Of a stretch of DNA of 55,752 nt, positions 47,160 through 51,175 are shown piece by piece. Location of the stretch: assembly GCA_049969715.1 (NCBI GenBank), contig JBMFOH010000010.1, positions 1 to 55,752 on the forward strand, read 5' to 3'. The stretch's first letter is position 1; every line of letters begins with the position of its first letter. The notes under the pieces are model-generated. The model searched no databases, was not told the origin of the DNA, and saw only the letters and a list, made by a program, of their open reading frames with translations. The position numbers and the translations under genes are program-made. This DNA is from JBMFOH01 sp049969715 [NCBI: bacterium]. Its GTDB lineage: Bacteria; DUMJ01.

Positions 47160-47279
47160 TTATGCGGCTGAGAATGTAGCACCACAGTTTTTACACTCCC
47201 ATTTGGAAGGGTCTCCCTTTTTAGGAAGAATCTTCGTACTGCCGCACTTTGGGCATCTTGCTGGTGCTTTCTTACCCAT
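47160..47279 (-). CDS. 39-residue zinc ribbon protein
   Basis: A short protein, MGKKAPARCPKCGSTKILP at its start, ending CKNCGATFSAA. Two CxxC knuckles (CPKC, CKNC) spaced by about 18 residues make one zinc ribbon, basic at the N-terminus. Its ATG overlaps the rpe stop (ATGGGTAA), an AAGG/GGTGA ribosome-binding region precedes it, and the terminator follows directly. Nucleic-acid or ribosome binding would fit the fold, but no specific function is known. Confidence 0.8.
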   Translation of the reverse strand: MGKKAPARCPKCGSTKILPKKGDPSKWECKNCGATFSAA

Positions 47280-47976
47280 AACCTTCACCTGCCTTCTCTA
47301 AAGATATATTCCCCCTACTATGACCTTCTACGATATTCTTTATATCCATCAAGGTCCTTTCCCTATTATTATTGTTGGTAATGGCAGAACCAATCACTAA
47401 CATATTAACTCCATATTCTAGTAAATTCTTTATGTTTCCATTGTTTATTCCACCATCTACCTCTATAATAGGATTAGCCTTTACTGTTTTGCATAGGTCC
47501 TTCAAATCTATTAGCCTTTTAAATGTGTTAGGGATAAATTCCTGCCCACCAAAGCCTGGATTTACACTCATAACAAGTACTAGGTCTACATCTGTAATTA
47601 TATCTTCTAAAAGGGTTATTGGTGTACCGGGATTTATTGCTACTCCAGCCTTACATCCGAAAGATCTTATGTAAGAGACTAGCCTATGGATATGATAGGT
47701 TGCTTCTATATGGACAGTAATGATATCCGCTCCAGCATTACTAAATAGCTCGATAAATCTCTCTGGCTCTTCTACCATAAGATGCGTATCTAACAAGAAA
47801 CCACCAAATTTTTTCAGAGAACTGACAAATTGAGGGCCAAAGCTCAGATTCGGTACAAAATGTCCATCCATTACATCTATGTGGAGCCAGCTGATTCCAG
47901 AACTCTTAAAATCCAAGAGGATCTCTTTCATATCAACTATATCCGCAGAGAGAAGAGAAGGGACTATCTCTGCCAT
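47272..47976 (-). CDS. rpe: ribulose-phosphate 3-epimerase
   Basis: It interconverts ribulose-5- and xylulose-5-phosphate in the pentose phosphate pathway. The 234-residue barrel has PSLLSADI, HIDVMDGHFVPNLSFGP and MSVNPGFGGQEFI with the metal ligands His, Asp and His. It overlaps murI by 13 bp and the zinc ribbon gene by 8 bp. Confidence 0.96.
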   Translation of the reverse strand: MAEIVPSLLSADIVDMKEILLDFKSSGISWLHIDVMDGHFVPNLSFGPQFVSSLKKFGGFLLDTHLMVEEPERFIELFSNAGADIITVHIEATYHIHRLVSYIRSFGCKAGVAINPGTPITLLEDIITDVDLVLVMSVNPGFGGQEFIPNTFKRLIDLKDLCKTVKANPIIEVDGGINNGNIKNLLEYGVNMLVIGSAITNNNNRERTLMDIKNIVEGHSRGNISLEKAGEGYG

Positions 47977-48782
47977 AACCTTATCTCTCCTTCTTCTCTA
48001 AGTGATATATGTCTTACCTTTAGAGGGATATCCAAAAATATACCAGCCTTTTCTTTGAAATCATAGACATCTCCGGTAGTATATACCTCTATAATACCTC
48101 TTCCTCCTCCTAATATATTCATTTCTCCTAGTTTTTTCTTCAATCTTTCCACCGCAGGTATCGCCGGATCAACTATCCTTATATCTTTTCCTAATAGCAT
48201 ACTACTAATCTCTTTCAAATACAAGGGATAATGACTACAGCCTAATATAAGAGTATCTACAGATACCTCAATAAGAGGTCTAAGATACACAGAAAAGGCT
48301 TTTATTAATACATCCTTCCTAACCCTATTCTCTATAAAAGGCACTAATAAGGGGGCAGATCTCTCTATTACCTGAATATTTGGGTTATATCGTCTGATGG
48401 TAAGAGTATAGGCAAGAGAAGATGCAGTTGCTCTAGTCGCTATCACTCCTACTCTTCTGATACTATGAATTTTTGATATTTCCTCAGCAGTAGGCTCTAT
48501 AAGACCGATCATAGGGGTAGAAATGATATTTTCTATATATTTTAAGGCTAGTGCCGAACTTGTATTACAGGCTACTAGTATTGCCTTTACCTGATGTCTT
48601 TCCAAAAAAGAGACAATCTGCCTCATATAATCTACAATCTCTGTAACAGACCTATTTCCATATGGCATATGAATAGTATCTGCCACATAAATAACATCCT
48701 CATAAGGAAGTATCCTCCTCAACTCCTTCAGAACAGTGAGTCCTCCTAAACCAGAATCAAAGATCCCTATCTTATTACTCAT
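47964..48782 (-). CDS. murI: glutamate racemase
   Basis: It makes D-glutamate for peptidoglycan. The 272-residue protein has GIFDSGLGGLTVLKEL and the two catalytic cysteines in LVACNTSSA and LGCSHYPLY. It overlaps the amidase gene by 4 bp, so two cell-wall genes are coupled. Confidence 0.96.
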   Translation of the reverse strand: MSNKIGIFDSGLGGLTVLKELRRILPYEDVIYVADTIHMPYGNRSVTEIVDYMRQIVSFLERHQVKAILVACNTSSALALKYIENIISTPMIGLIEPTAEEISKIHSIRRVGVIATRATASSLAYTLTIRRYNPNIQVIERSAPLLVPFIENRVRKDVLIKAFSVYLRPLIEVSVDTLILGCSHYPLYLKEISSMLLGKDIRIVDPAIPAVERLKKKLGEMNILGGGRGIIEVYTTGDVYDFKEKAGIFLDIPLKVRHISLREEGEIRLWQR

Positions 48783-50086
48783 TGTTTCCCCTCTAGAAAA
48801 GCTATTATCCCTGACACTATCCCACCTGCAATCTTCCTTCTAAAAAGAGAGTCCATTAGAAATTTTTCCTCAGTGGGATTAGAAATGAAAAGTGCTTCTA
48901 CCAGTATTGCTGGGATATTTACATTCTTTATTATAAAAAAATCTCCCTTCTTCACCCCTCTATTATACCTTCCAGTAGCATTAGAGAGACTATTACATAC
49001 CGATTCAGCGAAAGGCTTGTCTTCATCCCTACAATAGAATACCTCTATCCCTCCAGGTATAGGAGAGTTTGCAGAGTTACAGTGGACACTTACTAATATG
49101 GCTTTCCTATTGCCATTTATAAGTACCACCCTTGCCTCTAATTCTTCTCTAGCACTATTCCCATTGGGTGCTACAGAACTATCTGTACTCCTAGTTAGGA
49201 TTACCTGATAGCCATTTGATTCTAATAACCCCTTCATATATAAAGCTACATCAAGGGTAACATCCTTCTCCTTTAATCCACTTGGTCCTATCGCTCCCGG
49301 GTCCTTCCCTCCATGGCCTGGGTCTATAATGATAATGGGCTTTAAAACAGGAGGGGTTAAAGAGGACATTGGAAAGGAAAGTGAAATCACTCCGGGAACA
49401 GCTATCTCTTCTAAGCTCCACGATAAGGTATTATCACTACTTATTACTACTCTTACAGTTGGAGGATATATACTGAATTGACTTACCTTCACCTCGGTTA
49501 TAGGAGGAGATACCTGAATACTGTAGGTATCGTTCATAAGGGTGGTATTAGGAATATCTATTACTATTCTATTAGGATTAACTAGAGAGAAAACTTCAGG
49601 CAATAATACCTTCTTGCTCCCAGTTATAATATTAAGAAACCCCTTGTTACCAGCTGAAACATCTATCGAGACCTTCTTTAGTCTGGGGGGAAAGGAGACG
49701 GTAATACCTGAACTATCCTTTACTATGTCTTTATATCTTATAGGACCTGATAGGTCAAATACGACCCTTAGCTTTTTTTCGTCCTGTCTTGCTAATCTTA
49801 TCTTCTCTATTCCATCATTTTCTACTGGGATCTCAGAATCTAGCATTTTTGACTCCACAGGAGAGATATCTATAAAAAATCTGTATGGAGATTGAAGATA
49901 GGCATAGGAAAAGTCAAATCCACCGGTTATATCAATTTTAAAGATATCTTCATCGTCACCCTGGGTCCAGGAGATATTTGTTAGCGAAGAGATGAAACTA
50001 GAAGAGGTTTCTTCTCCAAAGATAGAAGAAACCAGTGGGAAAAGGATAAAAAAGTTTATAATAAAAACATATACCAATCTTTTCAT
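48779..50086 (-). CDS. N-acetylmuramoyl-L-alanine amidase with AMIN domains
   Basis: An exported peptidoglycan hydrolase of 435 residues. It has a signal peptide (about 1-24), two AMIN-like beta domains (about 35-130 and 135-235) that target the wall, and an Amidase_3 domain from 248. Zinc and catalytic residues are visible: His in IDPGHGGKDPGA, Glu in LKEKDVTLD, His in VSVHCNS and Glu in LVEALFISN. AMIN domains are most common in bacteria with an outer membrane. Its ATG lies only 7 nt after the CCA of tmRNA and has no Shine-Dalgarno site. Confidence 0.94.
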   Translation of the reverse strand: MKRLVYVFIINFFILFPLVSSIFGEETSSSFISSLTNISWTQGDDEDIFKIDITGGFDFSYAYLQSPYRFFIDISPVESKMLDSEIPVENDGIEKIRLARQDEKKLRVVFDLSGPIRYKDIVKDSSGITVSFPPRLKKVSIDVSAGNKGFLNIITGSKKVLLPEVFSLVNPNRIVIDIPNTTLMNDTYSIQVSPPITEVKVSQFSIYPPTVRVVISSDNTLSWSLEEIAVPGVISLSFPMSSLTPPVLKPIIIIDPGHGGKDPGAIGPSGLKEKDVTLDVALYMKGLLESNGYQVILTRSTDSSVAPNGNSAREELEARVVLINGNRKAILVSVHCNSANSPIPGGIEVFYCRDEDKPFAESVCNSLSNATGRYNRGVKKGDFFIIKNVNIPAILVEALFISNPTEEKFLMDSLFRRKIAGGIVSGIIAFLEGKQ

Positions 50087-50093
50087 TATTAAA

Positions 50094-50447
50094 TGGTGGA
50101 GGCGGCGGGAATCGAACCCGCGTCCGAGAATAGGCCGCCAAAAGGCCTCTACAGGATTAGTCTCTGTTTAAATGTCCCCTCATAGTCCCCCAGAGACAGG
50201 GCTATAAGGGCAAGCCCAAAAAAAGGTTCCCTTCTCTCTCCTTGAGCAAGGAGGAAGAAGGTAATCCTGCAATGGTCACACCATTTCCTGTCTTGCAGGC
50301 TCAGACAGGAATGACGGCAGCCTAATTAATTAGGCTGCTAAAGCCAACTGATTGTCGGCGAGTTTTTTCTGCCGCATTTTTACGAGCCTACGGCGACTCG
50401 TCCTGCTCCTTTTGACCTCCATATCCCCGTCGAATCCTTACGCCCCC
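50094..50447 (-). ncRNA. ssrA: tmRNA (transfer-messenger RNA)
   Basis: It rescues stalled ribosomes and tags the nascent protein. The 5' end GGGGGCG pairs with CGCCTCC next to the encoded CCA, a T-loop GGTTCGATTCC is near the 3' end, and GGATTCGACGGGG is the conserved 5' tRNA-like part. After CTCGTAAAAATGCGGCAG the resume codon GCC begins the tag ADNQLALAA, followed by TAA (50359-50330). The tag end sits in a perfect hairpin (GCAGCCTAAT and its complement). Length is 354 nt. Its first 10 nt contain the last codons and stop of smpB. Confidence 0.97.
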
Positions 50448-50902
50448 TTATATTCTTTTAATGTCCTTTCTAACTCTCTAACTCTATCCTTCTCTATTAG
50501 AAGCTTCTTCTTGTCGTAAAGCTTCCGCCCCTTTGCAAGGGCAATCTCTAATTTGGCGTTTCCTCTTTTAAAATACACCTTTAGAGGTATTACGGTATAC
50601 CCTCTCAATAAACTCTTACTGGCTAGATACTCTATCTCGTCCTTATGGAGGAGAAGCTTCCTTGTTCTATCAGGGTCCACATTGTACCTTCCGCCCTCCT
50701 TATAGGGAGATATATGCATATTTATAATCCAAGCCTCACCATCTTTTAGCTGGATATAACTATCCTTTAGATTACAGCTTCCTCTTCTTAAACTCTTCAC
50801 CTCTGTCCCCGATAGAACAATACCTGCCTCTAACGTCTCTTCTATATCAAAGTCATGATAAGCCTTTCTATTTACGGTTACAGTCTTTTCCTCTTCAGTC
50901 AA
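50438..50902 (-). CDS. smpB: SsrA-binding protein SmpB
   Basis: A 154-residue partner that brings tmRNA to stalled ribosomes. The OB-fold core has GTEVKSLRRGSCNLKDSYIQ and ALAKGRKLYDKKKLLIEKD. Its stop TAA (50440-50438) is positions 8-10 of tmRNA, so the two overlap by 10 nt. A tmRNA cut from the common transcript would remove the smpB stop codon, making one RNA molecule unable to serve both purposes. It starts directly after rpmE. Confidence 0.97.
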   Translation of the reverse strand: MTEEEKTVTVNRKAYHDFDIEETLEAGIVLSGTEVKSLRRGSCNLKDSYIQLKDGEAWIINMHISPYKEGGRYNVDPDRTRKLLLHKDEIEYLASKSLLRGYTVIPLKVYFKRGNAKLEIALAKGRKLYDKKKLLIEKDRVRELERTLKEYKGA

Positions 50903-51112
50903 CTACTTCTCACCGATATTAAACTTCCTCTTAAACTTCTCTACCCTTCCTTCTGTATCTACTATCTTCTGCTGTCCGGTAAAAAGGGGATGACACTTCG
51001 AACAGGACTCTACCCTGAGCTCTTTCTTGGTAGAACCTGTTACAAAAGTATTCCCACATGCACAGATCACTATTGCATCAGTATAATATGTAGGATGTAT
51101 ATTTTCTTTCAT
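50903..51112 (-). CDS. rpmE: 50S ribosomal protein L31, zinc type
   Basis: A 69-residue ribosomal protein with the four zinc cysteines Cys17, Cys19, Cys37 and Cys40 (CACG, CSKC), the C+ form, and the L31 signature [15 protein letters not shown] precedes the ATG. It is the first gene of the minus-strand operon rpmE-smpB-ssrA-amidase-murI-rpe. Confidence 0.97.
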
Positions 51113-51152: not shown

Positions 51153-51158
51153 ATTATA
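51153..51158 (-). promoter_or_regulatory. extended -10 promoter of rpmE-smpB-ssrA
   Basis: Minus strand TGGTATAAT is an extended -10 element; TATAAT lies at 51153-51158. The -35 region (ATGCAA, 17 bp away) is poor. Start is expected near 51146, giving a leader of about 34 nt. Confidence 0.6.
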
Positions 51159-51175
51159 CCATACTATTACAACAT

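Follow-up and report, generated by a model that had tools for sequence, protein, structure and literature searches.

We investigated the smpB-ssrA locus of a bacterial contig of 55,752 nucleotides (nt), here called the window, and observed that the reading frame of smpB ends inside ssrA, the gene of transfer-messenger RNA (tmRNA). The overlap of the two genes in the window is confirmed. In the reading that we prefer, with a probability of about 0.68, the locus is a packed operon in which ribonuclease P (RNase P), by cutting the joint transcript at the tmRNA 5' end, would leave a non-stop smpB message, so that SmpB production would carry a built-in negative feedback. This feedback is regarded as a consequence of the arrangement, and selection for it is not shown. 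Below, L and G followed by a number denote loci and genomes, respectively.

The overlap and the 5' end of tmRNA

Both genes lie on the minus strand, smpB at 50902-50438 with a TAA stop and ssrA at 50447-50094, and they share exactly 10 nt (50447..50438, GGGGGCGTAA). The 3' end of smpB reads ...TAT AAG GGG GCG TAA and the tmRNA starts with GGGGGCGTAAGGATTCGACGG. The common stretch opens with the final G of AAG (Lys152) and continues with GGG (Gly153), GCG (Ala154) and TAA; it makes up tmRNA nucleotides 1-10, among them the 5' acceptor strand, with the smpB stop at nucleotides 8-10. A preliminary description of this DNA, made from the letters alone, had placed the smpB stop within tmRNA by a 10-nt overlap, and this is borne out by the open reading frame (ORF) list, ARAGORN and the RF00023 covariance model. 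It further equated these bases with the final two codons and the stop, which is right as to Gly153, Ala154 and TAA and leaves out the one base contributed by Lys152.

The position of the tmRNA 5' end was given concordantly by different means. The RF00023 match scores 196.9 bits and covers model positions 1-374 of 374, ARAGORN returns the same ends, and the acceptor stem of 7 base pairs (GGGGGCG with CGCCUCC) fixes the 5' end. Pair probabilities computed for this stem are 0.88-1.0 in the window and in loci L001, L002 and L003, both for the mature RNA and with a 100-nt flank on each side. These three loci were obtained by a SmpB protein search that returned 31 loci; they show 87% identity and come from the only three genomes sampled of their phylum, whose assemblies measure 2.1-2.4 Mb. 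The identical overlap GGGGGCGTAA is present in all three relatives, and hence in four of four genomes with the window, which indicates that it is not an assembly accident. Absence from close relatives had been named beforehand as a point that would count against the proposal, and the proposal was not refuted by this comparison. Among the other 28 loci of the search, seven had an ARAGORN tmRNA in the examined stretch and none of these seven displayed the overlap; the nearest of them was L031 (Omnitrophota), where 9 nt separate the smpB stop from the tmRNA.

An apparent overlap could also be produced by a wrongly placed tmRNA 5' end, a sequencing or assembly error, or a wrong reading frame. We found nothing in favour of such an artefact and rejected it as extremely improbable, with full-length RF00023 and ARAGORN in agreement, the acceptor stem intact and the four assemblies alike, all three relatives included. 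The protein encoded by smpB matches PF01668 over the full domain (profile positions 2-142 of 143) and possesses both the loop and the tail, the latter aligning with the tail of Escherichia coli SmpB at the level of sequence alignment.

Joint transcription and the predicted fate of the smpB message

The promoter-like site upstream of rpmE, the layout and the synonymous codon data favour one smpB-ssrA transcript. In the window, L001, L002 and L003 (4/4), the element TGnTATAATATT precedes the rpmE ATG by 39-42 nt, and the DNA farther upstream of it differs between the window and the three relatives. Inside smpB, a promoter scan of the window gave no match on the coding strand, and a pattern search for TGnTATAAT was negative in the gene in all four genomes. 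Synonymous codon identity is 33/57 (58%) over codons 141-150 against 505/821 (61.5%) over codons 1-150, so there is no sign of an embedded conserved promoter near the smpB 3' end; the last four codons are fixed across the compared genomes, as the tmRNA requires.

A separate ssrA promoter within smpB had been listed in the preliminary description as an argument against its own proposal; such a promoter could make most of the tmRNA independently and reduce the cut of the joint transcript to a minor leak. We detected no convincing promoter of this kind by the scan, the TGnTATAAT pattern or synonymous conservation; the best candidate, itself weak, was a perfect TATAAT at about codon 103 in L001-L003, with weaker promoter-like matches elsewhere in the gene. 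The overlap leaves no other site for a separate ssrA promoter, which speaks for this alternative, but the codon-103 hexamer lacks the TGn extension, has a poor -35 (3 of 6 matches at 15-nt spacing), lies some 140 nt before the tmRNA and is absent in the window. Such an arrangement is, in our estimation, rather unlikely.

Several observations nevertheless weigh against the packed operon with a joint transcript. The -35 of the rpmE site has only 2-3 of 6 matches, and the promoter scan of the region did not list that site, returning 8 sites against a mean of 11.3 in shuffled sequence. The codon-103 TATAAT of the three relatives counts in the same direction, and under looser scoring the rpmE site reaches 10-11 points and the sites in smpB 9-10, which makes an in-gene promoter possible. 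RNase P RNA was detected in two of the genomes G001-G003 and was not found in G003, whose assembly is maybe incomplete. Moreover, if release of the tmRNA were slow relative to decay of the smpB mRNA, the non-stop message would hardly matter.

Under the packed-operon reading, rpmE, smpB and ssrA, and probably also the amidase gene that follows, would be transcribed together. Packing would have become so extreme that the original smpB stop disappeared and the gene came to use the TAA within the tmRNA; compaction would explain the origin of the overlap. RNase P matures tmRNA 5' ends (PMC3985003). The acceptor stem cannot form without the tmRNA 3' end, so the enzyme would act only once the whole tmRNA has been transcribed, and until that moment ribosomes would terminate normally on smpB and deliver SmpB with a complete tail. 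The predicted cut before G1 would end the smpB message inside codon 152, as ...GAA UAU AA-3', without a stop and with Tyr151 as the last complete sense codon; read from the sequence, poly(A) added after UAU AA would yield AAA (Lys codons) and not a stop. Later ribosomes would stall at ...LKEY and be rescued by tmRNA-SmpB, and the tagged product, approximately ...KEY + Ala + ADNQLALAA, would be directed to ClpP-type proteolysis and the message to decay. Each transcript would thus provide a short burst of SmpB and one tmRNA, and the remaining message would be cleared by the very machine it encodes. Expression of rpmE might also be affected, by analogy with the decay of the upstream cistron in zntR-arfA. 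A ClpP-family protein and an RqcH-type protein with an NFACT_N domain were each found in all three of G001-G003. The earlier claim that a joint transcript, once matured by RNase P, would leave smpB mRNA without a stop follows from the overlap geometry together with cleavage at G1, and the earlier interpretation as a whole is partly supported.

Spacing of smpB and ssrA in other lineages

For a wider view, 192 genomes related to G001 were surveyed, and tmRNA was present in 173. Among the matches listed (150 of the 173), 148 loci were used and two rows at contig ends were left out; ARAGORN identified a tmRNA in 143 of the 148, and L127, L136, L169, L174 and L185 were dropped. Some phyla are represented by more than one genome: G027 and G174 share a phylum, and so do G041 and G186. 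The flanks contained 45 smpB matches, of which 42 lie upstream on the same strand and one (L124) on the opposite strand; these counts cover the examined flanks, and copies farther away or past contig ends fall outside them. The remaining two, L077 and L110, carry smpB downstream of ssrA on the same strand. With upstream same-strand smpB in 42 of 143 loci, the majority of loci do not show the pair.

Overlaps were observed in four lineages. Besides the 10 nt of the window clade (TAA at tmRNA nucleotides 8-10), smpB enters ssrA by 11 nt in L083 (TAG at 9-11), by 8 nt in L113 (TGA at 6-8) and by 1 nt in L171, where the G of TAG is tmRNA G1. The differing stops, positions and phyla, the latter as grouped by the search tool without a tree, suggest separate origins. 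The proposed survey of related genomes yielded three of three relatives identical and overlaps of 11, 8 and 1 nt in three other lineages. Among these lineages the overlap occurs in one of the six loci with upstream smpB in the phylum of L083 (that of G149) and in one of two in that of L113 (also that of G041), and the five loci in the phylum of L171 (that of G108) have gaps of -1, -1, 1, 1 and 5 nt. In L171 and L205 of the last phylum, the G of the smpB TAG coincides with tmRNA G1 and the cut would leave UA. In the phylum of G080 (L208-L214), the smpB stop and tmRNA G1 are separated by 0, 0, 0, 1, 1, 1 and 1 nt in seven of seven genomes; the corresponding gap in E. coli K-12 is 214 nt. In L106 (G176; tmRNA c[902,1258]), a non-smpB ORF with PF02896, the C-terminal domain of PEP-utilising enzymes, presumably ptsI, enters the tmRNA by 24 nt; its family is that single genome, so the conservation of its overlap has no comparison. 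A non-smpB ORF also overlaps the tmRNA in L149, and this ORF, which has no Pfam match, is probably spurious.

Another possibility is mutual exclusion of translation and RNA maturation: a ribosome at the end of smpB would cover the tmRNA 5' strand and delay folding of the acceptor stem, so that a well-translated transcript would yield SmpB before tmRNA. The footprint of a terminating ribosome extends about a dozen nt past the stop, and the smpB stop lies within the first ten tmRNA nucleotides, next to the acceptor strand. The effect would nonetheless operate about equally at gaps of 0-5 nt, so the overlap is not needed for it, and we regard this explanation as quite unlikely.

We also asked how far the overlap exceeds chance in a comparison set of 141 tmRNAs, from which L033 and L034 were left out as members of the same clade. 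The smpB class comprised loci with smpB within 300 nt (n = 38; L067 and L183, with smpB farther away, were left out), and the other class comprised loci whose longest nearby upstream ORF has at least 120 amino acids (aa) and is not smpB (n = 55; only L106 and L149 were checked as genes). The pooled set including related genomes (57 versus 55) was not used for P values. The median gap to ssrA is 25.5 nt for smpB (n = 38) against 110 nt for other ORFs (n = 55; Mann-Whitney P = 4.6e-6), and gaps of at most 10 nt were recorded in 12/38 against 3/55 (P = 0.0012). Overlap itself is not significantly commoner after smpB (4/38 versus 2/55, P = 0.22; 4/38 versus 1/54, P = 0.16, with the L149 ORF dropped), which counts against the overlap as a selected trait. 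A statistical excess of overlap specific to smpB is not supported, and the short distance alone is significant. A stop codon lying wholly within the first 12 nt, in any frame, is found in 30 of the 141 tmRNAs, so the overlap makes use of a feature absent from most tmRNAs. In our view smpB and ssrA are genuinely close neighbours, and overlap is the far end of that closeness. It is not proven that selection has sought the overlap, nor is overlap as such shown to be more frequent than tight packing would produce.

A published survey lists 250 upstream same-orientation coding sequences (CDSs) overlapping tRNA or tmRNA genes among 115,660 (Table 4, PMC4131195). Against that count, our 4 overlaps in 141 give a binomial P of 2.7e-4, and the three overlaps of at least 8 nt alone give P = 0.0037, the two surveys differing in gene calling, method and sampling.

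These figures form part of the case for a selected autoregulatory loop, in which the overlap would be retained to keep SmpB proportional to tmRNA. At high rescue capacity, SmpB made from cut messages would be tagged and destroyed; at low capacity, other factors, for example the RqcH pathway, would release SmpB untagged or with a different tail, as with ArfA. Also consistent with such a loop are the unchanged overlap in four of four genomes, the separate cases in other frames in three further lineages, the near-zero gaps throughout the phylum of G080, and the RqcH-type protein in all three genomes inspected. Against it stand the lack of a significant excess behind smpB, the patchy occurrence within the phyla of G149 and G041, and the continuum of overlap, abutment and short gaps across lineages, into which the unrelated ptsI-like gene of L106 also falls. 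Moreover, the shared codons are already fixed by the tmRNA, so their conservation is not independent evidence. A loop maintained by selection is, on balance, unlikely. An equally tentative and improbable extension would be that trans-translation limits its own partner in cis through a fixed SmpB burst per tmRNA, an arrangement that would have arisen several times, been retained by selection where SmpB is full-length, and maybe reached rpmE through decay and the amidase through the start of its message. Self-regulation would be a reasonable consequence of the arrangement, and selection for it is not proven.

Neighbouring genes and comparison with known systems

The features of the locus are collected in Table 1. 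According to the ORF list and Pfam, the gene order on the minus strand is rpmE, smpB, ssrA, an amidase gene, a racemase-family (murI-like) gene and an rpe-like gene. The rpmE stop TAG directly adjoins the smpB TTG start (window 50902-50905), the racemase-family gene overlaps the amidase gene by 4 nt and the rpe-like gene overlaps the racemase gene by 13 nt, showing that packing is general at the locus. In L001-L003, the rpmE-smpB spacing is slightly different from that of the window and the TTG start is retained. A plasmid search with distant DNA comparison gave a single match, within rpmE.

Table 1. Coordinates of features at the smpB-ssrA locus of the window
Feature	Position	Strand	Basis
TGnTATAAT, promoter-like element of the extended -10 type ahead of rpmE; proposed promoter of the operon	51153..51161	-	consensus match only
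rpmE, ribosomal protein L31	50903..51112	-	PF01197 E=6.6e-31; ORF list
smpB, TTG start, 154 aa, C-terminal tail present, end ...LKEYKGA-stop	50438..50902	-	PF01668 E=3.9e-57; alignment to E. coli SmpB
smpB/ssrA 10-nt overlap GGGGGCGTAA	50438..50447	-	identical in L001, L002, L003
Predicted site of RNase P cleavage (50448/50447), within smpB codon 152	50447..50448	-	5' end by RF00023 and ARAGORN; cleavage predicted
ssrA (tmRNA), 354 nt, CCA encoded	50094..50447	-	RF00023 196.9 bits; ARAGORN
tmRNA tag reading frame ADNQLALAA-stop	50330..50359	-	ARAGORN coding part at 89,118 of gene
AMIN/Amidase_3 N-acetylmuramoyl-L-alanine amidase	48779..50086	-	PF01520 E=1.2e-50, PF11741 E=6.7e-20
Asp/Glu racemase family protein (murI-like)	47964..48782	-	PF01177 E=1.8e-19; ORF list
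Ribulose-phosphate 3-epimerase family protein (rpe-like)	47272..47976	-	PF00834 E=1.8e-72; ORF list

The downstream side is similarly compact. In the window, 7 nt separate the tmRNA CCA from the ATG of the amidase gene (50086-50093), which has no Shine-Dalgarno-like sequence immediately in front, and we infer that the amidase message would be leaderless after tmRNA 3' processing. The amidase gap is 10 nt in L032-L034, which are the same loci as L001-L003. In the G108 group, the ATG of a downstream ORF stands 5-7 nt past the CCA in four of the five genomes with tmRNA (L171, L204, L205 and L206), and no such downstream ORF was found in the fifth, L207. Amidase homologues downstream of ssrA on the same strand were identified by tblastn or phmmer, with orientation taken from coordinates, in members of the G080 and G108 groups and likewise in L064, L113, L188, L216 and L137, there not necessarily as the next gene. 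A long ORF starting at most 20 nt from the tmRNA 3' end was recorded in 11/57 smpB-preceded loci against 2/55 others, related genomes being counted separately. Taken together, smpB-ssrA-amidase looks like an old neighbourhood with the tmRNA embedded in a protein operon. With a tmRNA set between two protein genes with almost no spacer, RNA maturation may determine both where the upstream message ends and where the downstream one begins.

For the smpB-ssrA pair of Carsonella ruddii, an insect symbiont with a reduced genome, Hudson et al. cite Mao et al. 2009. Hudson, Lau and Williams (2014) themselves proposed, for Carsonella ruddii, both the overlap of smpB into ssrA and the same feedback, so the arrangement and the feedback idea are already in print (PMC4131195); that paper, whose overlap survey spans 2031 genome projects, reports smpB-ssrA overlap nowhere besides Carsonella. 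As there, smpB enters ssrA in the same orientation, the stop lies inside the mature tmRNA, and a non-stop smpB mRNA is expected on maturation. Unlike Carsonella, whose SmpB is degenerate, the locus described here encodes an SmpB that has both loop and tail, its relatives' assemblies measure 2.1-2.4 Mb, and one identical overlap is common to the window and three genomes. In the same survey, bacterial CDS overlaps with tRNA or tmRNA genes share the stop-inside-RNA-gene layout, and the top family, an FtsW/RodA-type gene with a tRNA, involves no feedback between product and RNA (PMC4131195). Operons holding both smpB and tmRNA are described in Corynebacterium diphtheriae (PMC5784534) and Bacillus subtilis (PMC7430163), and for mycobacteria the two genes are reported to lie apart (PMC6582537). 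Our literature search revealed no further such cases by title or abstract opening, with most subscription journals lying outside its coverage.

Two other systems offer instructive parallels. In E. coli, the arfA ORF contains an RNase III site and a terminator that leave its message without a stop, and it encodes a backup rescue factor; trans-translation represses this nonstop message, and the upstream cistron of zntR-arfA is drawn into decay with it (PMC10107115). As with arfA, a rescue gene is predicted to have a message that ends before its stop; unlike arfA, the non-stop end would be created when RNase P matures the partner RNA, and the gene encodes SmpB itself, not an alternative rescue factor. 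In human mitochondria, tRNA punctuation sets mRNA 3' ends through the RNase P cut at the tRNA 5' end, and several messages lack a complete encoded stop (PMC9674279). There poly(A) completes the stop, whereas here the cut would leave AA and poly(A) would add Lys codons; in the G108 lineage, where the cut would leave UA, one added A could restore UAA by analogy with mitochondria.

The Carsonella case alone, with its degenerate SmpB, could be dismissed as genome decay, whereas the overlap here occurs with an intact SmpB. An intact protein, a shared overlap and counterparts elsewhere make a self-limiting rescue system testable by comparing the overlap with a spacer. New, to our knowledge, are the occurrence in relatives whose assemblies reach 2.1-2.4 Mb and whose SmpB has loop and tail, the identical overlap in the window and three relatives, the three other lineages and the sandwich of tmRNA between smpB and the amidase gene. 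Judged from its gene sequences, the locus is a new, well-preserved instance of the Carsonella-type arrangement, with the SmpB tail intact.
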